From Acetobacteraceae bacterium (lineage in GTDB: Bacteria; Pseudomonadota; Alphaproteobacteria; Acetobacterales; Acetobacteraceae): a stretch of DNA of 43,136 nucleotides. The notes under the pieces were generated by a model. That model did no database searches, had not been told where the DNA came from, and was given only the letters and a program-made list of their open reading frames with translations. A program made the translations under genes and the position numbers. Below are positions 36,910 to 41,971 of the stretch, in pieces (position 1 is the stretch's first letter; each line of letters opens with the position of its first letter). The DNA lies in assembly GCA_027487675.1 (NCBI GenBank), contig JAIYDD010000040.1:1-43136 (forward strand). Reading direction: 5' to 3'.

Positions 36910-37074
36910 TGCCGTGGGGCTCGGGCCTGGACCCGCGGCCGGGGGCCGGGGCCCCGGGTGGCGCCCGCCGCCGGCGCGGCGAAGCCAGGCGTGCGCCGGC
37001 GCCTGGGGGCGGAAGCGTGCCGACGCCCCCGCGGAGCGGTGCCAAGCGCCCGAGGCGACGCCCGCGGCCGGGGG

Positions 37075-37290
37075 TCAGTTGAGCGGCGAGGGTCTCCGCG
37101 CCGTGTCGATCCGGTCCGGCACCAGCGCCGCGGCCATCGCCGCGTGATGCGCCGCCGCGTCGGCCCCCAGCCGCCGGCATTCCGCCTCGACATAGCTCAG
37201 CATGAGGAGCAGCGCCGAGCGATCGGCCGCCTGGGGTCCAGTCTCTCCGCCGCTCCTCGACCGCGTCCTGTTGCTGCCCGGCATGTCCAT
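37075..37290 (-). CDS. Small hypothetical protein
   Basis: A 71-residue frame beginning MDMPGSNRTRSRSGGETGPQ, with a helical second half, SALLLMLSYVEAECRRLGAD. I do not recognise the family. Support is modest: an AGGA site 9 nt before the ATG at 37290, a plausible amphipathic helix and a position divergent from the Bug receptor gene with a comparatively AT-rich 229-bp gap. The frame can be extended by 19 residues upstream. Confidence 0.5.
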   Translation of the reverse strand: MDMPGSNRTRSRSGGETGPQAADRSALLLMLSYVEAECRRLGADAAAHHAAMAAALVPDRIDTARRPSPLN

Positions 37291-37344
37291 ATCGCTGGTC
37301 CTGTAGCATGCGCCAATCTGACGATTATCTGATGGCATACGGAT

Positions 37345-37354
37345 CACGGCCGTG
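37345..37354. promoter_or_regulatory. Short perfect palindrome in a divergent gap
   Basis: CACGGCCGTG, flanked as ATCACGGCCGTGTGA, lies in the AT-richer gap between the small hypothetical gene (start 37290) and the Bug receptor gene (start 37520). It could be an operator; no family was recognised. Confidence 0.25.
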
Positions 37355-37519
37355 TGAAGCCAGAATCGCCGTTTATGACTTTCTACCTACAGTTGTGTGC
37401 ATTCGGCGCGCTTCCGGGCCTCGACAGGAAGGGTTTCGGCCGGCGACAACAGGTTCCTGCGCGCGCGCGGCCCGCTCGCCCGCTTCGCCCGCCCGAGTCG
37501 CGCCCCCGGAGAGACACGC

Positions 37520-38506
37520 ATGCCACGCCGCAGGACCCTGATCGCCGCCGCCGGCGCCGCGCTGGCCGCCCCCCGGGGCGCCCCCGCCCTGGCGCAGACC
37601 ACAAGCTGGCCGAGCCGACCAATCCGCCTGGTCATCCCCTTCGCCACCGGCGGCACCACCGACATCATCGGCCGGCTGATGGCCGACGAGATGTCGCGCT
37701 TCCTCGGCCAGCCCATCGTGGCGGACAACCGCCCGGGGGCCGGCGCCACCCTCGGCACCGGGCTCGCCGCGCAGGCGGCACCCGATGGCTACACGCTGCT
37801 GCTCTCCACCATTTCCGGCATGGCGGTCGGCCACACCCTGTACCGCGAGCGCATCCAGTGGGACGCCGACCGCGACTTCGCCCATGTCGCGATGCTGCTC
37901 GGCACGCCCTACCTGCTGGTGGTCAACCCGCGCTTCCCCGGCGCGACGCTGGCAGATTACGTGGCGGAGGCCAGGCGCCGGCCGCAGGGGCTGGAATTCG
38001 CCACCTCCGGCATCGGCAGCGTGCCGCACCTGCTCGGCCTGCGGCTGGCCCAGGCGGCCGGCATCGGCCTGACCCACATCCCCTATCGCGGCGGCGCCCA
38101 GGCCGCGACCGACGTGATCGCCGGCGTGGTGCCCAGCATGATCGACAGCCTGACCGCGGCCAGCGCCAATCTCCGCGCCGGCACGGTGCGCGCGCTGGCC
38201 TTCTCCTCCCCCCGCCGGATCGAGGGTTTCTCCGACGTGCCGACCTTCGCCGAGCTCGGCCTGCCGCAGCTGACCGCCGATGGCTGGGCGGGGCTGGCCG
38301 CCCCGGCGCGCACGCCGCGCCCCATCCTGGAACGGCTGGCCGAGGCGGTGCGCGCCGCGCAGGCCGCGCCCCAGGTGCAGCGCCGCTTCGCCGAGACCGC
38401 GACCCAGCCCGGCCGCGTCTTCCTGGACGATGCGCAGGCCTTCGTCCGCGCCGAGATCGCCGCCTGGGCGCCGGTGGTGCGGCAATCCGGCGCGGCGCCC
38501 GAGTAA
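37520..38506 (+). CDS. Bug family tripartite tricarboxylate-type periplasmic receptor
   Basis: A 328-residue receptor with signal MPRRRTLIAAAGAALAAPRG and cleavage near ALAQ. Ligand loops: WPSRPIRLVIPFATGGTTDI, NRPGAGATLGTGLAAQAA, HIPYRGGAQAATDVIAGVV. It is preceded by CCGGAGAG at a normal distance. No TctAB permease or catabolic gene is next to it, so it is an orphan receptor whose ligand cannot be inferred. It is followed by the putative sRNA locus on the other strand. Confidence 0.9.
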   Translation: MPRRRTLIAAAGAALAAPRGAPALAQTTSWPSRPIRLVIPFATGGTTDIIGRLMADEMSRFLGQPIVADNRPGAGATLGTGLAAQAAPDGYTLLLSTISGMAVGHTLYRERIQWDADRDFAHVAMLLGTPYLLVVNPRFPGATLADYVAEARRRPQGLEFATSGIGSVPHLLGLRLAQAAGIGLTHIPYRGGAQAATDVIAGVVPSMIDSLTAASANLRAGTVRALAFSSPRRIEGFSDVPTFAELGLPQLTADGWAGLAAPARTPRPILERLAEAVRAAQAAPQVQRRFAETATQPGRVFLDDAQAFVRAEIAAWAPVVRQSGAAPE

Positions 38507-38524
38507 CGGCACGGACCGCACGCG

Positions 38525-38554
38525 AAAAAAACCCCGGCGGGATGCCCGCCGGGG
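38525..38554 (-). terminator. Intrinsic terminator of the minus-strand small RNA
   Basis: A perfect 10-bp stem CCCCGGCGGG/CCCGCCGGGG with a 3-nt loop (38532-38554), followed on the minus strand by seven U residues (38531-38525). It is oriented to stop a minus-strand transcript, yet no minus-strand protein gene precedes it. It faces the end of the Bug receptor gene. Confidence 0.85.
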
Positions 38555-38614
38555 ACCGAGTTGAGGGAGGAAACGTCCAGGAACGTCCCTGCGGCGCCTT
38601 GGCGCCCCGGGACA
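38525..38614 (-). ncRNA. Putative FNR/FixK-activated small RNA with anti-Shine-Dalgarno seed
   Basis: Predicted ~90-nt transcript. Its 5' end (38614) is inferred from a -10 hexamer TAGTCT (38626-38621) and a perfect FNR-type box centred 41.5 bp upstream. The RNA would fold into a 5' hairpin (GTCCC/GGGAC arms with an inner GGCGCC pair), then expose an unpaired stretch containing GTTTCCTCCCTCAACT (CCUCC is complementary to ribosome-binding sites), and end in a strong GC hairpin with a U7 tail, the layout of Hfq-dependent regulatory RNAs. By analogy with FnrS it could repress translation of targets when oxygen is low. There is no open frame of note. Expression and targets are inference. Confidence 0.65.
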
Positions 38615-38620
38615 TCCATG

Positions 38621-38626
38621 AGACTA
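38621..38626 (-). promoter_or_regulatory. -10 element of the small RNA
   Basis: TAGTCT on the minus strand occupies positions -12 to -7 relative to an inferred start at 38614, in correct register with the FNR-type box at -41.5. Confidence 0.5.
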
Positions 38627-38648
38627 GGCGGGCCGCGATCACGCCGCA

Positions 38649-38662
38649 TTGATGCAAATCAA
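38649..38662. promoter_or_regulatory. Perfect FNR/FixK (anaerobox) site
   Basis: TTGATGCAAATCAA matches the TTGAT-N4-ATCAA consensus without a mismatch. Its centre (38655.5) is 41.5 bp from the inferred sRNA start, the class II activator position, and about 117 bp upstream of the phaB start codon on the other strand. Confidence 0.75.
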
Positions 38663-38772
38663 ACCTGCGTCGGCGATCAGGGTCCAGGTTCCACCCCGGG
38701 TTTGCCCGCCGCGCCGGATGGCGCGAGGATGCAGGCGCCCGGCAGGGCAGACAGGGAAGGGGAAGCTCCAGA

Positions 38773-39495
38773 ATGGCACGCGTGGCACTCGTCACCGGTG
38801 GACAGCGCGGCATCGGCGCCGCGATCAGCGAGGCGCTGCAGGCCGCCGGGCGCAAGGTCGTGGCCTCCTACGCCGGCAACGATGCCGCGGCGCAGGCCTT
38901 CACCGAGCGCACCGGCATCCCCTGCGTGAAGTTCGACGTCGGCGATTTCGACGCCTGCGTCGCCGCGGTGGCCAAGGTCGAGGCCGAGATCGGCCCGGTC
39001 GAGATCCTGGTGAACAACGCCGGCATCACCCGCGACGCGATGATGCGCAAGCTGACGCGCCAGATGTGGGACGACGTGATCGATACCAACCTCGGCAGCT
39101 GCTACAACATGTGCAAGGCGGTGTGGGACGGCATGAACGCCCGCAAGTTCGGCCGCATCGTCAACATCGGCAGCGTCAACGGCCAGGCCGGCCAGCTCGG
39201 CCAGGTGAACTACGCCGCCGCCAAGTCCGGCATCCACGGCTTCACCAAGGCGCTGGCCCAGGAAGGCGCGCGCAACAAGATCACGGTGAACGCCATCGCG
39301 CCCGGCTACGTGGACACCGAGATGGTGCGCGCCGTCCCCGCCGACGTGCTGGAGAAGATCGTGGCGCGCATCCCGATCGGCCGGCTCGGCAAGGCCGAGG
39401 ACATCGCCCGCGGCGTCGCCTTCCTGACGGCGGACGAGGCGGAATTCGTCACCGGCTCCACGCTGTCGATCAACGGCGGCCAGCACATGTACTGA
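38773..39495 (+). CDS. phaB: Acetoacetyl-CoA reductase (PhaB)
   Basis: A 240-residue SDR. The N-terminus MARVALVTGGQRGIGAAISE is followed by NNAGITRDAMMRKLTRQMWD (81 on), then N106, S134, Y147 and K151 (NYAAAKSGIHGFTKALAQEG), and the C-terminus TGSTLSINGGQHMY is diagnostic for PhaB. It reduces acetoacetyl-CoA to (R)-3-hydroxybutyryl-CoA with NADPH for polyhydroxyalkanoate synthesis. An AGGGAAGGGGAAG stretch precedes the ATG. No phaA or phaC is adjacent. An anaerobox lies upstream but fits the divergent small RNA better. Confidence 0.92.
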   Translation: MARVALVTGGQRGIGAAISEALQAAGRKVVASYAGNDAAAQAFTERTGIPCVKFDVGDFDACVAAVAKVEAEIGPVEILVNNAGITRDAMMRKLTRQMWDDVIDTNLGSCYNMCKAVWDGMNARKFGRIVNIGSVNGQAGQLGQVNYAAAKSGIHGFTKALAQEGARNKITVNAIAPGYVDTEMVRAVPADVLEKIVARIPIGRLGKAEDIARGVAFLTADEAEFVTGSTLSINGGQHMY

Positions 39496-39529
39496 GCGGG
39501 CGGCGGCGCGGTCGCGCTTTCTCGCCTTC

Positions 39530-39549
39530 GCCGGGGCGCCGGCCCCGGC
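39530..39549 (+). terminator. Hairpin downstream of phaB
   Basis: GCCGGGGC and GCCCCGGC form an 8-bp stem with a GCCG loop, 35 bp after the phaB stop. There is no T-run, so this is a weak terminator candidate. Confidence 0.35.
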
Positions 39550-39799
39550 GCCCGAAGCCGGGGCGGGCCCGCCGCCTGTCCTCCGGCCGCCGGCCATCTG
39601 GCCCAGGACAGCCCCCTTCGCCGGTCGGTCGCACCCGGCCCGGCCGCCGCGGGGGGCGTGCGATCATGCGCGCGAAGCCACGTGCATCGCGGGCGATTTC
39701 CCCATGCTCCCACGACGCTTCGCCTCGCGGGCGCCGTCCGACATGTCCGGCGTCGTACCCCCCGCAAAAGCGGGAGAGGGAAAGACACCGCCGACGTCT

Positions 39800-39825
39800 C
39801 CCTCCCCCGCTGTTGCGGGGGAGGG
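39800..39825. repeat. Dispersed CCCTCCCCCGC palindrome (copy 5)
   Basis: An 11-bp perfect stem (39800-39810 with 39815-39825) with a TGTT loop, followed by TCGGGGTGGGGGT. It is a sibling of the repeats near 24782, 34575, 34703 and 36028. A second related hairpin, CCCCGCAAAAGCGGG, is at about 39760-39774. Confidence 0.7.
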
Positions 39826-40121
39826 TCGGGGTGGGGGTCTTGCCCCCGCTCGGCGGTCGAGTTCCGCGCCGTTGGCGCGTGGCATGCCGCGGCCACCCAC
39901 TGGGCCCGAGCGGCACCAGGGTGCGGGCGCGGCCAGCGGCGCCCCCATCCGCCGCCGCCATCCCGCGGCGACCACAGCCAGGACAACCCCGCACCGCGAC
40001 GGCCCTGCGCGATGAGAGCCGGCCCCCAAGGCGATGCCGGAAGGCCGCACTGCCCGACGGAATCGCCGAAGCCCCGTCCGGGCCGCCGCCTCGGGAAGAA
40101 CTTCCCCGAACCGTTAAATGT

Positions 40122-40139
40122 TTTGCATCCGTTTGTCAT
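40122..40139 (+). promoter_or_regulatory. Pho-box-like element upstream of phoD
   Basis: TTTGCAT (40122-40128), a 4-bp spacer and TTGTCAT (40133-40139) reproduce the 7-4-7 direct-repeat layout of a PhoB box (consensus CTGTCAT). The second half matches 6 of 7 positions, the first only 4. The element sits 50 bp upstream of a predicted phosphatase start. Confidence 0.4.
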
Positions 40140-40189
40140 GAAGCCCGGAGATAGGACGCGCCGCCCCCGAATTGGATGGAGTGCAGGAC

Positions 40190-41971
40190 ATGGCGGTCGA
40201 CGACCGGAACCCCCGCGGCGCGCAGGACGATGCGACGCTGCTCGAGATGCGGCGCCGCGACGCCTTCCGCATCGTCTTCGGCGCCGCCGCGGCCGCCATG
40301 GTCGGCCTCGACGAGGCCGAGGCGAGCACCCCGGCCGCCCCGAGCTTCCGCCACGGCGTCGCCAGCGGCGACCCGCGGCTCGAAAGCGTCATCATCTGGA
40401 CCCGCGTGACGCCGGTGACCAACCGCCAGCTGATGGTGGACTGGCGCGTCTCCTCCACCTCCGACATGGCCAACATCGTCGCCTCCGGCCAGGCCCCGGC
40501 CTCGCCGATCCACGACTTCACGGTGAAGGTGGATGTCGAGGGCCTGCAGCCGGGCGGCACCTATTTCTACCAGTTCGCCGTCGGCGGCGTGATGTCCGCG
40601 GTCGGCCGCACCCGCACCCTGCCGGCCAATGCCAGCCGCGACCCCGTCTCGCTGGCCTTCTTCTCCTGCGCCAACTACGAGAAGGGCTTCTTCAACGTGT
40701 ACGGAGAGGCAGCGCGCCAGGCCGACCTGTTCGGCGTCGTCCATCTCGGCGACTACACCTACGAATACGGCGTGGCCGGCTACCTGACGCCCGCCATGGC
40801 GCTGAACCCCACCGTGAACTTCGAGCCGCGCCGCGCCGAGCTCGTCCCCGCCACCGAGACGGTCACCCTCGCCGCCTATCGCCAGCGCCTCGCCCTCTAC
40901 CGCACCGACCCGCAGCTGCAGGCGCTGCACGCGCATTGCCCCTGGTTCTGCAGCTACGACGACCACGAATCCACCAACGATTCCTGGACCGGCGGCGCGC
41001 AGAACCACACCCCGGGCGTCGAGGGCGACTGGCAGGCCCGCAAGCGCGACGCGCTGCGCGCCTGGTTCGAATGGATGCCGGTCCGCACGCGCGATCCGCG
41101 CTTCGACGGCATGAACAACCCGCAGGCGCTCTACCGCCACTTCAACTTCGGCCGCGTCGCGCGGCTGCTGATGCTCGATTCGCGCCTGGCGGGCCGCGAC
41201 CGGCAGCTCACCACCCCGGAGTTCCTGGCCGTCTACGGGATCGGCGTGCCGAGCCCCGCGCCGGACATGGTGGATGGCCGCCCGCGCACCCTGCTGGGCA
41301 GCGCGCAGGAAGCCTGGCTGGACAGCGAGCTGTCCACCTCCCGCCAGGTGTGGCAGCTGATCGGCAACCAGACCCTGCTGCACTACCAGGGCGCGGCGGA
41401 CTTCGAGAGCTTCCCCGGCTTCGACGCCCCGACCAAGGCGGCGATCCGCGCCGGGCTCGACGGCCTGTTCGGCGCCGGCGCCGGCGCGCAGTTCGGCCAG
41501 CTCGGCATCGCCGGCGGCCCCAACCCGGAAGGCGCCGACACCTGGACCGGCTATCCGGGCGCCAAGAGCCGCCTCTACGCCTCGCTGCTGCGGGCGCGGA
41601 ACCCGGTCGTGCTCTCGGGCGACAGCCACAATGCCTGGGCGGCCAACCTCGCCGCCGGCCGCACCCCGGTCGGCGTGGAATTCGGCACCGCTTCCGTCAC
41701 CTCCCCCGGGCTCGAGCAGTTCTTCGCCTTCCCGCGCCAGGTGCTGGAGGCGCTGATGCTGTTCACCTCCAACACCCGCTGGCGCAACGACAAGCTGGTC
41801 TTCGCCGACACCGGCCGCCGCGGCTATGTCCGGCTGAACGCCAGCATGACCGAGCTGGTGGCGACCTTCGTGCAGGTGAACACCGTGCTGTCCACCAGCT
41901 ACACGGTGGATGCCAGCGCTTCCTTCCGCGTGCTGCCCGGCGCGCGGACCATCGCGCCGGTCGCCACCTGA
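40190..41971 (+). CDS. phoD: Alkaline phosphatase D family protein (PhoD-like)
   Basis: A 593-residue metallophosphatase, probably exported. MRRRDAFRIVFGAAAAAMVGL near the N-terminus (residues 19-39) resembles a Tat signal, though not perfectly. The PhoD N-terminal domain follows (FRHGVASGDPRLESVIIWTR), then the catalytic domain with CANYEKGF, HLGDYTYEYG, CSYDDHESTNDSW and SGDSHNAWA, which hold the metal ligands. PhoD enzymes release phosphate from mono- and diesters with Fe and Ca. The start at 40190 has GGAG 8 nt upstream; a TTG six codons earlier is an alternative. A Pho-box-like sequence upstream suggests induction by phosphate shortage. Confidence 0.9.
   Translation: MAVDDRNPRGAQDDATLLEMRRRDAFRIVFGAAAAAMVGLDEAEASTPAAPSFRHGVASGDPRLESVIIWTRVTPVTNRQLMVDWRVSSTSDMANIVASGQAPASPIHDFTVKVDVEGLQPGGTYFYQFAVGGVMSAVGRTRTLPANASRDPVSLAFFSCANYEKGFFNVYGEAARQADLFGVVHLGDYTYEYGVAGYLTPAMALNPTVNFEPRRAELVPATETVTLAAYRQRLALYRTDPQLQALHAHCPWFCSYDDHESTNDSWTGGAQNHTPGVEGDWQARKRDALRAWFEWMPVRTRDPRFDGMNNPQALYRHFNFGRVARLLMLDSRLAGRDRQLTTPEFLAVYGIGVPSPAPDMVDGRPRTLLGSAQEAWLDSELSTSRQVWQLIGNQTLLHYQGAADFESFPGFDAPTKAAIRAGLDGLFGAGAGAQFGQLGIAGGPNPEGADTWTGYPGAKSRLYASLLRARNPVVLSGDSHNAWAANLAAGRTPVGVEFGTASVTSPGLEQFFAFPRQVLEALMLFTSNTRWRNDKLVFADTGRRGYVRLNASMTELVATFVQVNTVLSTSYTVDASASFRVLPGARTIAPVAT

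Follow-up and report, generated by a model that had tools for sequence, protein, structure and literature searches.

In the window, by which we mean the whole 43,136-nucleotide stretch of DNA that was analysed, a predicted small RNA (sRNA) gene of the alpha-r8/MmgR family was located on the minus strand (38525–38614), supported by a match to Rfam family RF00519 and with a predicted transcription start. This gene and its counterparts in related genomes are referred to as class A. Its convergent neighbour in the window genome is a TctC/Bug solute-binding receptor gene (plus strand, 37397–38506), and its divergent neighbour is phaB, encoding acetoacetyl-CoA reductase (plus strand, 38773–39495). 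Both had been named in the original prediction and were confirmed by matches to PF03401 and to TIGR01829 (over cut-off), respectively; against the stricter PhaB equivalog NF042966, the phaB product scored 217.7, under the cut-off of 436. An FNR/FixK-type palindrome, TTGATGCAAATCAA, which is a perfect TTGAT-N4-ATCAA box, occupies 38649–38662; relative to the predicted start of the sRNA, its centre falls at −41.5. The −10 element TAGTCT (minus strand, 38621–38626) would lie at −12 to −7 if transcription starts at 38614, which corresponds to class II spacing from the box. The positions of these elements, as given in the original prediction, hold when read directly from the sequence. A probable core promoter of phaB, GTTTGC ... 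GAGGAT (plus strand, 38700–38730), was assigned from its conserved spacing and lies apart from the sRNA promoter. A scan of positions 37000–41000 for sigma-70 consensus promoters found none, compared with 0.1 expected.

Folding of the predicted transcript 38614–38525 reproduced the architecture that had been proposed from the letters of the sequence, namely an RNA of ~90 nt with a 5' hairpin, an open seed stretch and a GC-rich 3' hairpin followed by a run of U. The 5' hairpin (minus strand, 38585–38613) was assigned from the fold and the alignment, and the open stretch contains GUUUCCUCCC. The Rho-independent terminator (minus strand, 38525–38554), assigned from the terminator scan, the fold and the alignment, comprises a 10-bp GC stem (38554–38532) and seven U (38531–38525). 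The fold was more stable than that of most shuffled sequences (z = −2.79, with 4 of 200 shuffles equal or better). The 10-mer UUUCCUCCCU (minus strand, 38564–38573), a putative anti-Shine-Dalgarno seed, is unpaired in the centroid fold, and three of its bases are weakly paired in the minimum-energy fold. The scan of 37000–41000 for terminators returned two overlapping sites, both corresponding to the sRNA terminator, with 1.2 expected by shuffling; taken by itself, the terminator is thus only a weak argument. Its assignment to the Bug gene was ruled out, as the U run lies 3' of the stem on the minus strand only; moreover, the terminator stays in the other nine class A copies, although their ~3-kb loci lack a Bug match. 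In the alignment of the ten class A copies, all 178 counted cells of the hairpin and terminator pairing are paired, and this level of pairing and covariation was reached by 11 of 500 shuffles. Covariation, anticipated for both hairpins, was found in one of them: two compensatory pairs occur, both in the 5' hairpin, and none in the terminator. With two pairs, the covariation is modest and was considered supporting, not strong, evidence for the predicted structure. As to coding potential, no start codon is common to the ten class A copies, two of which have none at all.

The Rfam scan envisaged in the original prediction returned no match in the window at gathering thresholds and was informative at relaxed ones, where RF00519 (suhB/mmgR) ranked top of 13 matches up to E = 10. 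The aligned segment spans 38517–38591 of the minus strand and scores 36.8 bits (E = 2.2e-6), below the curated cut-off (gathering score) of 41 bits. Two of the ten genus copies of class A exceed this value (G003, with 43.1 bits, and G010, with 45.9 bits), and the remaining eight, window included, score 31.6–40.7 bits. At the centre of the RF00519 alignment, the 10-mer UUUCCUCCCU (38573–38564), invariant in 10/10 class A copies, is identical to the 10-mer common to alpha-r8 RNAs (PMC12559287, section 7). As in these RNAs, a hairpin lies 5' of the core and a Rho-independent terminator 3' of it. Because the core is exact and other copies score better, the gene predicted at 38614–38525 of the minus strand is, judged by its sequence, a diverged member or subgroup of the alpha-r8 (MmgR/SisA, RF00519) sRNA family, although the window copy alone falls under the curated cut-off. 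This corrects the original prediction in one respect, as no described sRNA of this sequence had been named there. Linkage to an N-formylglutamate amidohydrolase (FGase) gene, which is usual for alpha-r8 but not required, was not found in class A, which adjoins phaB; beside the FGase gene is the usual place of alpha-r8, and SisB–D lie elsewhere (PMC12559287). Among 14 control genomes, RF00519 at E ≤ 0.001 matched two: Caulobacter, which exceeded the cut-off, and Thermus composti, a genome without known reason for a match. When the limit was relaxed to E ≤ 1, matches appeared in 13 of the 14. Scores of ~30 bits are thus not decisive.

The genus was taken as Falsiroseomonas, via its named member F. 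bella CQN31; the class A copies of G002 and of F. bella CQN31 both score 92.6 bits. DNA searches found class A in 10 of 15 genus genomes, in all ten divergent to phaB. In the other five, the phaB locus has neither the box nor the sRNA core, and phaB stays. The Bug neighbour occurs only in the window genome, the Bug protein match being absent from the other nine class A loci (~3 kb each). All ten copies carry a TTGA[T/C]N4ATCAA box 88–91 bases before UUUCCUCCC and an NANNNT −10 at box offset 36, which is the class II geometry. At 17 other offsets on the sRNA side (28 to 45), NANNNT was found in 0–3 of the ten copies each, and at 12 offsets toward phaB (30–41), in 0–1 of ten. The box, the exactly spaced −10, the seed and the terminator are kept together in 10/10 class A genus copies, and conservation in the alignment peaks around the seed. 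This comparison across the ten copies supports both the FNR/FixK class II promoter and the exposed anti-Shine-Dalgarno seed of the original prediction. Genome-wide, four perfect TTGAT-N4-ATCAA palindromes were found in 5,184,480 bases, compared with 0.08 expected from base composition or 0.35 from a first-order Markov model derived from the window; the reversed-pattern control gave none. Besides the box at the sRNA, a second precedes ccoN (TIGR00780 over cut-off) and a third precedes hemA, encoding 5-aminolevulinate synthase (ALAS; TIGR01821 over cut-off). Both ccoN and hemA are classical FNR/FnrL/FixK targets. The fourth palindrome (L143, ~1501–1514; G000 contig 177) is unassigned; it lies close to the 3' terminus of a PEP-CTERM-like frame and next to a small frame for which neither NCBIfam nor Pfam gave a match. 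Owing to this genome-wide excess and to the joint conservation in 10/10 class A copies, the combination of the box with the predicted −10, seed and terminator is more than chance.

Further alpha-r8 copies within the genus differ in the DNA upstream of the RNA. Class B adjoins the FGase gene in 15/15 genus genomes (FGase family scanned in one of them). Of its 19 copies, all have the PhaR-type motif YGCRNYGCR in the 160 upstream bases and none has an FNR box. Its common TTGTGCATCGCAGCA closely resembles the PhaR-bound site of mmgR, as given in PMC12542648. Four extra B-like copies (L021, L024, L029 and L030) have the PhaR-type operator, and no FGase match was found in their vicinity; for three of them (L024, L029 and L030), a TctC/Bug-type receptor gene is close by. 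Elsewhere in the family, copies from other genera show the PhaR-type motif in 26/26 cases and an FNR box (≤1 mismatch) in 0/26; these derive from 27 loci (L177–L203) that were the best matches of model R1 and not a random sample, the core being present in 26 and L184 being dropped as it has no core near its centre. Class A promoters carry no PhaR-type motif, and 3/10 copies carry one inside the RNA hairpin. Class C (L159–L172) adjoins a proS-like gene, as judged by the translated sequence at one locus, in 14/15 genus genomes, and was unmatched in the draft genome of the window. It has neither a PhaR motif nor an FNR box in 14/14 copies, and ~170 nt of its upstream DNA are strongly conserved. 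In one genome of another genus, three tandem alpha-r8-like matches were observed within ~600 bases (L180 and L203; G112 contig 4, 165029–165629). Since class A has the FNR box, while class B and the other-genus copies have the PhaR-type operator, one alpha-r8 sibling seems to have been rewired from PHB sensing to oxygen sensing.

A draw of 397 family genomes gave 15 with the box–spacer–core pattern and none with the reversed control pattern; the 15 comprise 8 of the 13 genus genomes in the draw, 5/6 of g58, 1/6 of g63 and 1/4 of g74. The g58 genes are FNR-box alpha-r8 candidates at a different locus, flanked by msrB and the gene of a solute-binding protein, as annotated for one of the five loci; four of the five exceed the Rfam gathering score, and the −10 at offset 36 is weak, with NANNNT in 0/5. 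The single matches of g63 and g74 are G150/L126 and G237/L140. The former is probably due to chance, because the site is not among the five RF00519 matches of G150 at E ≤ 0.001. The draw from the order gave the pattern in 9/346 genomes, all nine already among the matches of the family draw, and that from the class gave it in 2/386, the window's own genome and G550 (site L141); the family, order and class draws are overlapping samples. Model R1, when applied to 150 family genomes, reached 89–103 bits in the class A copies of three genus genomes, which had themselves been used to build the model, and at most 52.8 bits elsewhere. In 85 phaB loci (80 named and 5 of the genus), only that of F. bella (L041) scored as class A, with 92.6 bits, its sequence also being inside the model, as G002; four others reached 16.7–20.9 bits. 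An sRNA beside phaB in other genera was rejected, as exact TTTCCTCCC occurs in 10 of the 80 named phaB loci and the box in L041 only. Hence, the joint conservation upstream of phaB that had been foreseen for the Acetobacteraceae was borne out for box, −10, seed and terminator in 10/10 class A copies and not across the family, in which L041 was the sole case among the 85 phaB loci. The arrangement of a predicted alpha-r8 gene behind an FNR-type box is confined to few lineages.

The reading we favour, to which we assign a probability of about 0.75, is that an alpha-r8 (MmgR/SisA) sRNA gene would here have turned oxygen-responsive. Upon falling oxygen, an FNR-type regulator would bind the box at −41.5 and switch the sRNA on, whose seed, together with Hfq, would pair with Shine-Dalgarno regions and lower the translation of a set of mRNAs, plausibly those of uptake receptors and of storage-related genes. 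The genus would run one seed under several signals: PHB status via PhaR in class B and oxygen via FNR in class A. Class C, beside the proS-like gene, would be a further sibling under another signal.

A putative cognate regulator for an FNR/FixK class II promoter is encoded in the genome. This is a Crp/FNR-type protein (L146, 1009–1752) with domains over cut-off, which features CGTCGSRVTGLC, a central Cys and an ETVSR helix. Its N-terminal cysteine cluster is presumably that typical of Fe–S FNR/FnrL proteins, and a role in oxygen sensing is suggested by the cysteines together with the box. In NCBIfam, FixK is the best match of the L146 protein and FnrL the second, both under their equivalog cut-offs, and two further HTH_Crp_2 matches are present in the genome. 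Both observations would suit a real alpha-r8 sRNA whose palindrome is bound by another Crp/FNR-type protein, responding to a redox, NO or FixLJ-FixK-like signal. We consider this variant rather unlikely, as it is countered by the cysteine cluster of the L146 protein and by the boxes before ccoN and hemA, which fit oxygen control.

The position of the box relative to phaB bears on whether it might also, or instead, act on the plus strand. The element GAGGAT was found in 9/10 class A loci, at 60.5–62.5 bases from the box centre in eight of the nine and at 69.5 in the window. The pair GTTTGC ... GAGGAT is also visible in L124, a genus genome without the sRNA. As 8/9 loci have almost the same distance between box and phaB promoter, a shared box acting on phaB has some plausibility. 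The palindrome, which is symmetric, could then drive the sRNA from a class II and phaB from a class I position. The spacing in the window differs by 7–9 bp, close to one helical turn but less than it. The other loci vary by 0–2 bp, and this near-constancy may only reflect close kinship; we regard dual control as possible, with the odds clearly against it. An extended version, which we hold to be comparably doubtful, is that a single FNR box would activate at low oxygen both phaB (class I) and an alpha-r8 sRNA of the PHB-limiting type (class II), giving rise to an incoherent feed-forward circuit. This circuit would have originated via a swap of the PhaR operator in a duplicated MmgR-type gene, and was perhaps reached again in g58 without the phaB link.

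It is considerably less probable that the box serves phaB alone, in class I position, with the minus-strand RNA as a silent relic or by-product. If GAGGAT is the −10 of phaB, the box would be found at ~−72 to −82, near class I positions, and FNR-type control of PHB genes has been reported elsewhere (PMC9049629). A box-like TTGATTCAAGTCAA also precedes phaB without an sRNA core in an uncultured Rhodospirillales bacterium (L066, ~3893, ~100 bases before phaB), in one case among 28 other loci scanned (L042–L069). However, the exact class II −10 is found on the sRNA side in 10/10 copies, the alignment is at its most conserved around the seed, and the five genus genomes that lack the RNA lack the box as well and retain phaB. 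Finally, that there is no sRNA, and that a chance palindrome stands next to a stray terminator hairpin in GC-rich DNA, would agree with the near-chance result of the terminator scan alone, but this reading is so improbable as to be refuted, as far as sequence allows, by the Rfam match, the conservation in ten genomes, the joint absence in five and the four perfect boxes genome-wide against 0.1–0.4 expected.

For the favoured reading, an oxygen-responsive alpha-r8 sRNA, phaB was unsupported as a direct target: pairing of the seed with positions −45 to +20 of phaB was no better than with shuffles in the ten class A and five other genomes, the fraction of shuffles at least as good being 0.175–0.985. 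Given this result for its ribosome-binding region, phaB is not an evident target. Within the window genome (G000), ten genes (L149–L158) have AGGGAGGAA before the ATG, a ribosome-binding site perfectly complementary to nine seed bases. Three of them encode TctC receptors, one an NMT1-like receptor and another a molybdopterin oxidoreductase. The receptor genes among these leaders were taken as a target lead without claimed enrichment, as Bug genes may simply be numerous.

FnrS of Escherichia coli, which is driven by an FNR-type site, acts as a translational repressor when oxygen is low. The label "FnrS-like" of the original prediction is apt as a comparison of logic and does not extend to descent: no sequence relation between the two RNAs was found, and none of the 13 Rfam matches up to E = 10 was to FnrS. 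Closer in sequence is MmgR of Sinorhizobium meliloti, which limits PHB and phasin levels and is under PhaR/AniA and NtrC control (PMC8401924, PMC7143759). The window sRNA shares with MmgR the 10-mer core, the downstream terminator and the length class, whereas it differs in having an FNR box and no PhaR motif in the promoter, in adjoining phaB and in scoring under the Rfam cut-off. SisA–D of Caulobacter crescentus, for which CrfA is the sponge, are comparable in that they are siblings with one seed and unrelated promoters. SisA adjoins the FGase gene, as most class B copies do, and repressed 8/10 tested targets (PMC12559287, section 6). FixK has no occurrence in the main text of PMC12559287, and the portion of PMC10888616 available to us makes no mention of sRNA or mmgR. 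Among the literature matches listed, which were mostly judged by title and the start of the abstract and comprised few subscription papers, and apart from the family survey by Lagares et al. (2016), none described an oxygen- or FNR-controlled alpha-r8 RNA. The locus appears to be a case of a known family with new wiring.

In its Discussion, PMC12559287 leaves undecided whether alpha-r8 siblings that share a seed are redundant or have separate roles. In the genus studied here, the siblings differ cleanly in their switch, with a PhaR-type operator on one and an FNR-type box on another. This suggests that sibling copies serve to feed different signals, such as storage status and oxygen, into one target set. 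If true, an extra sRNA copy would couple both carbon storage and the uptake of nutrients to oxygen, with the storage-sensing switch swapped for a low-oxygen switch.
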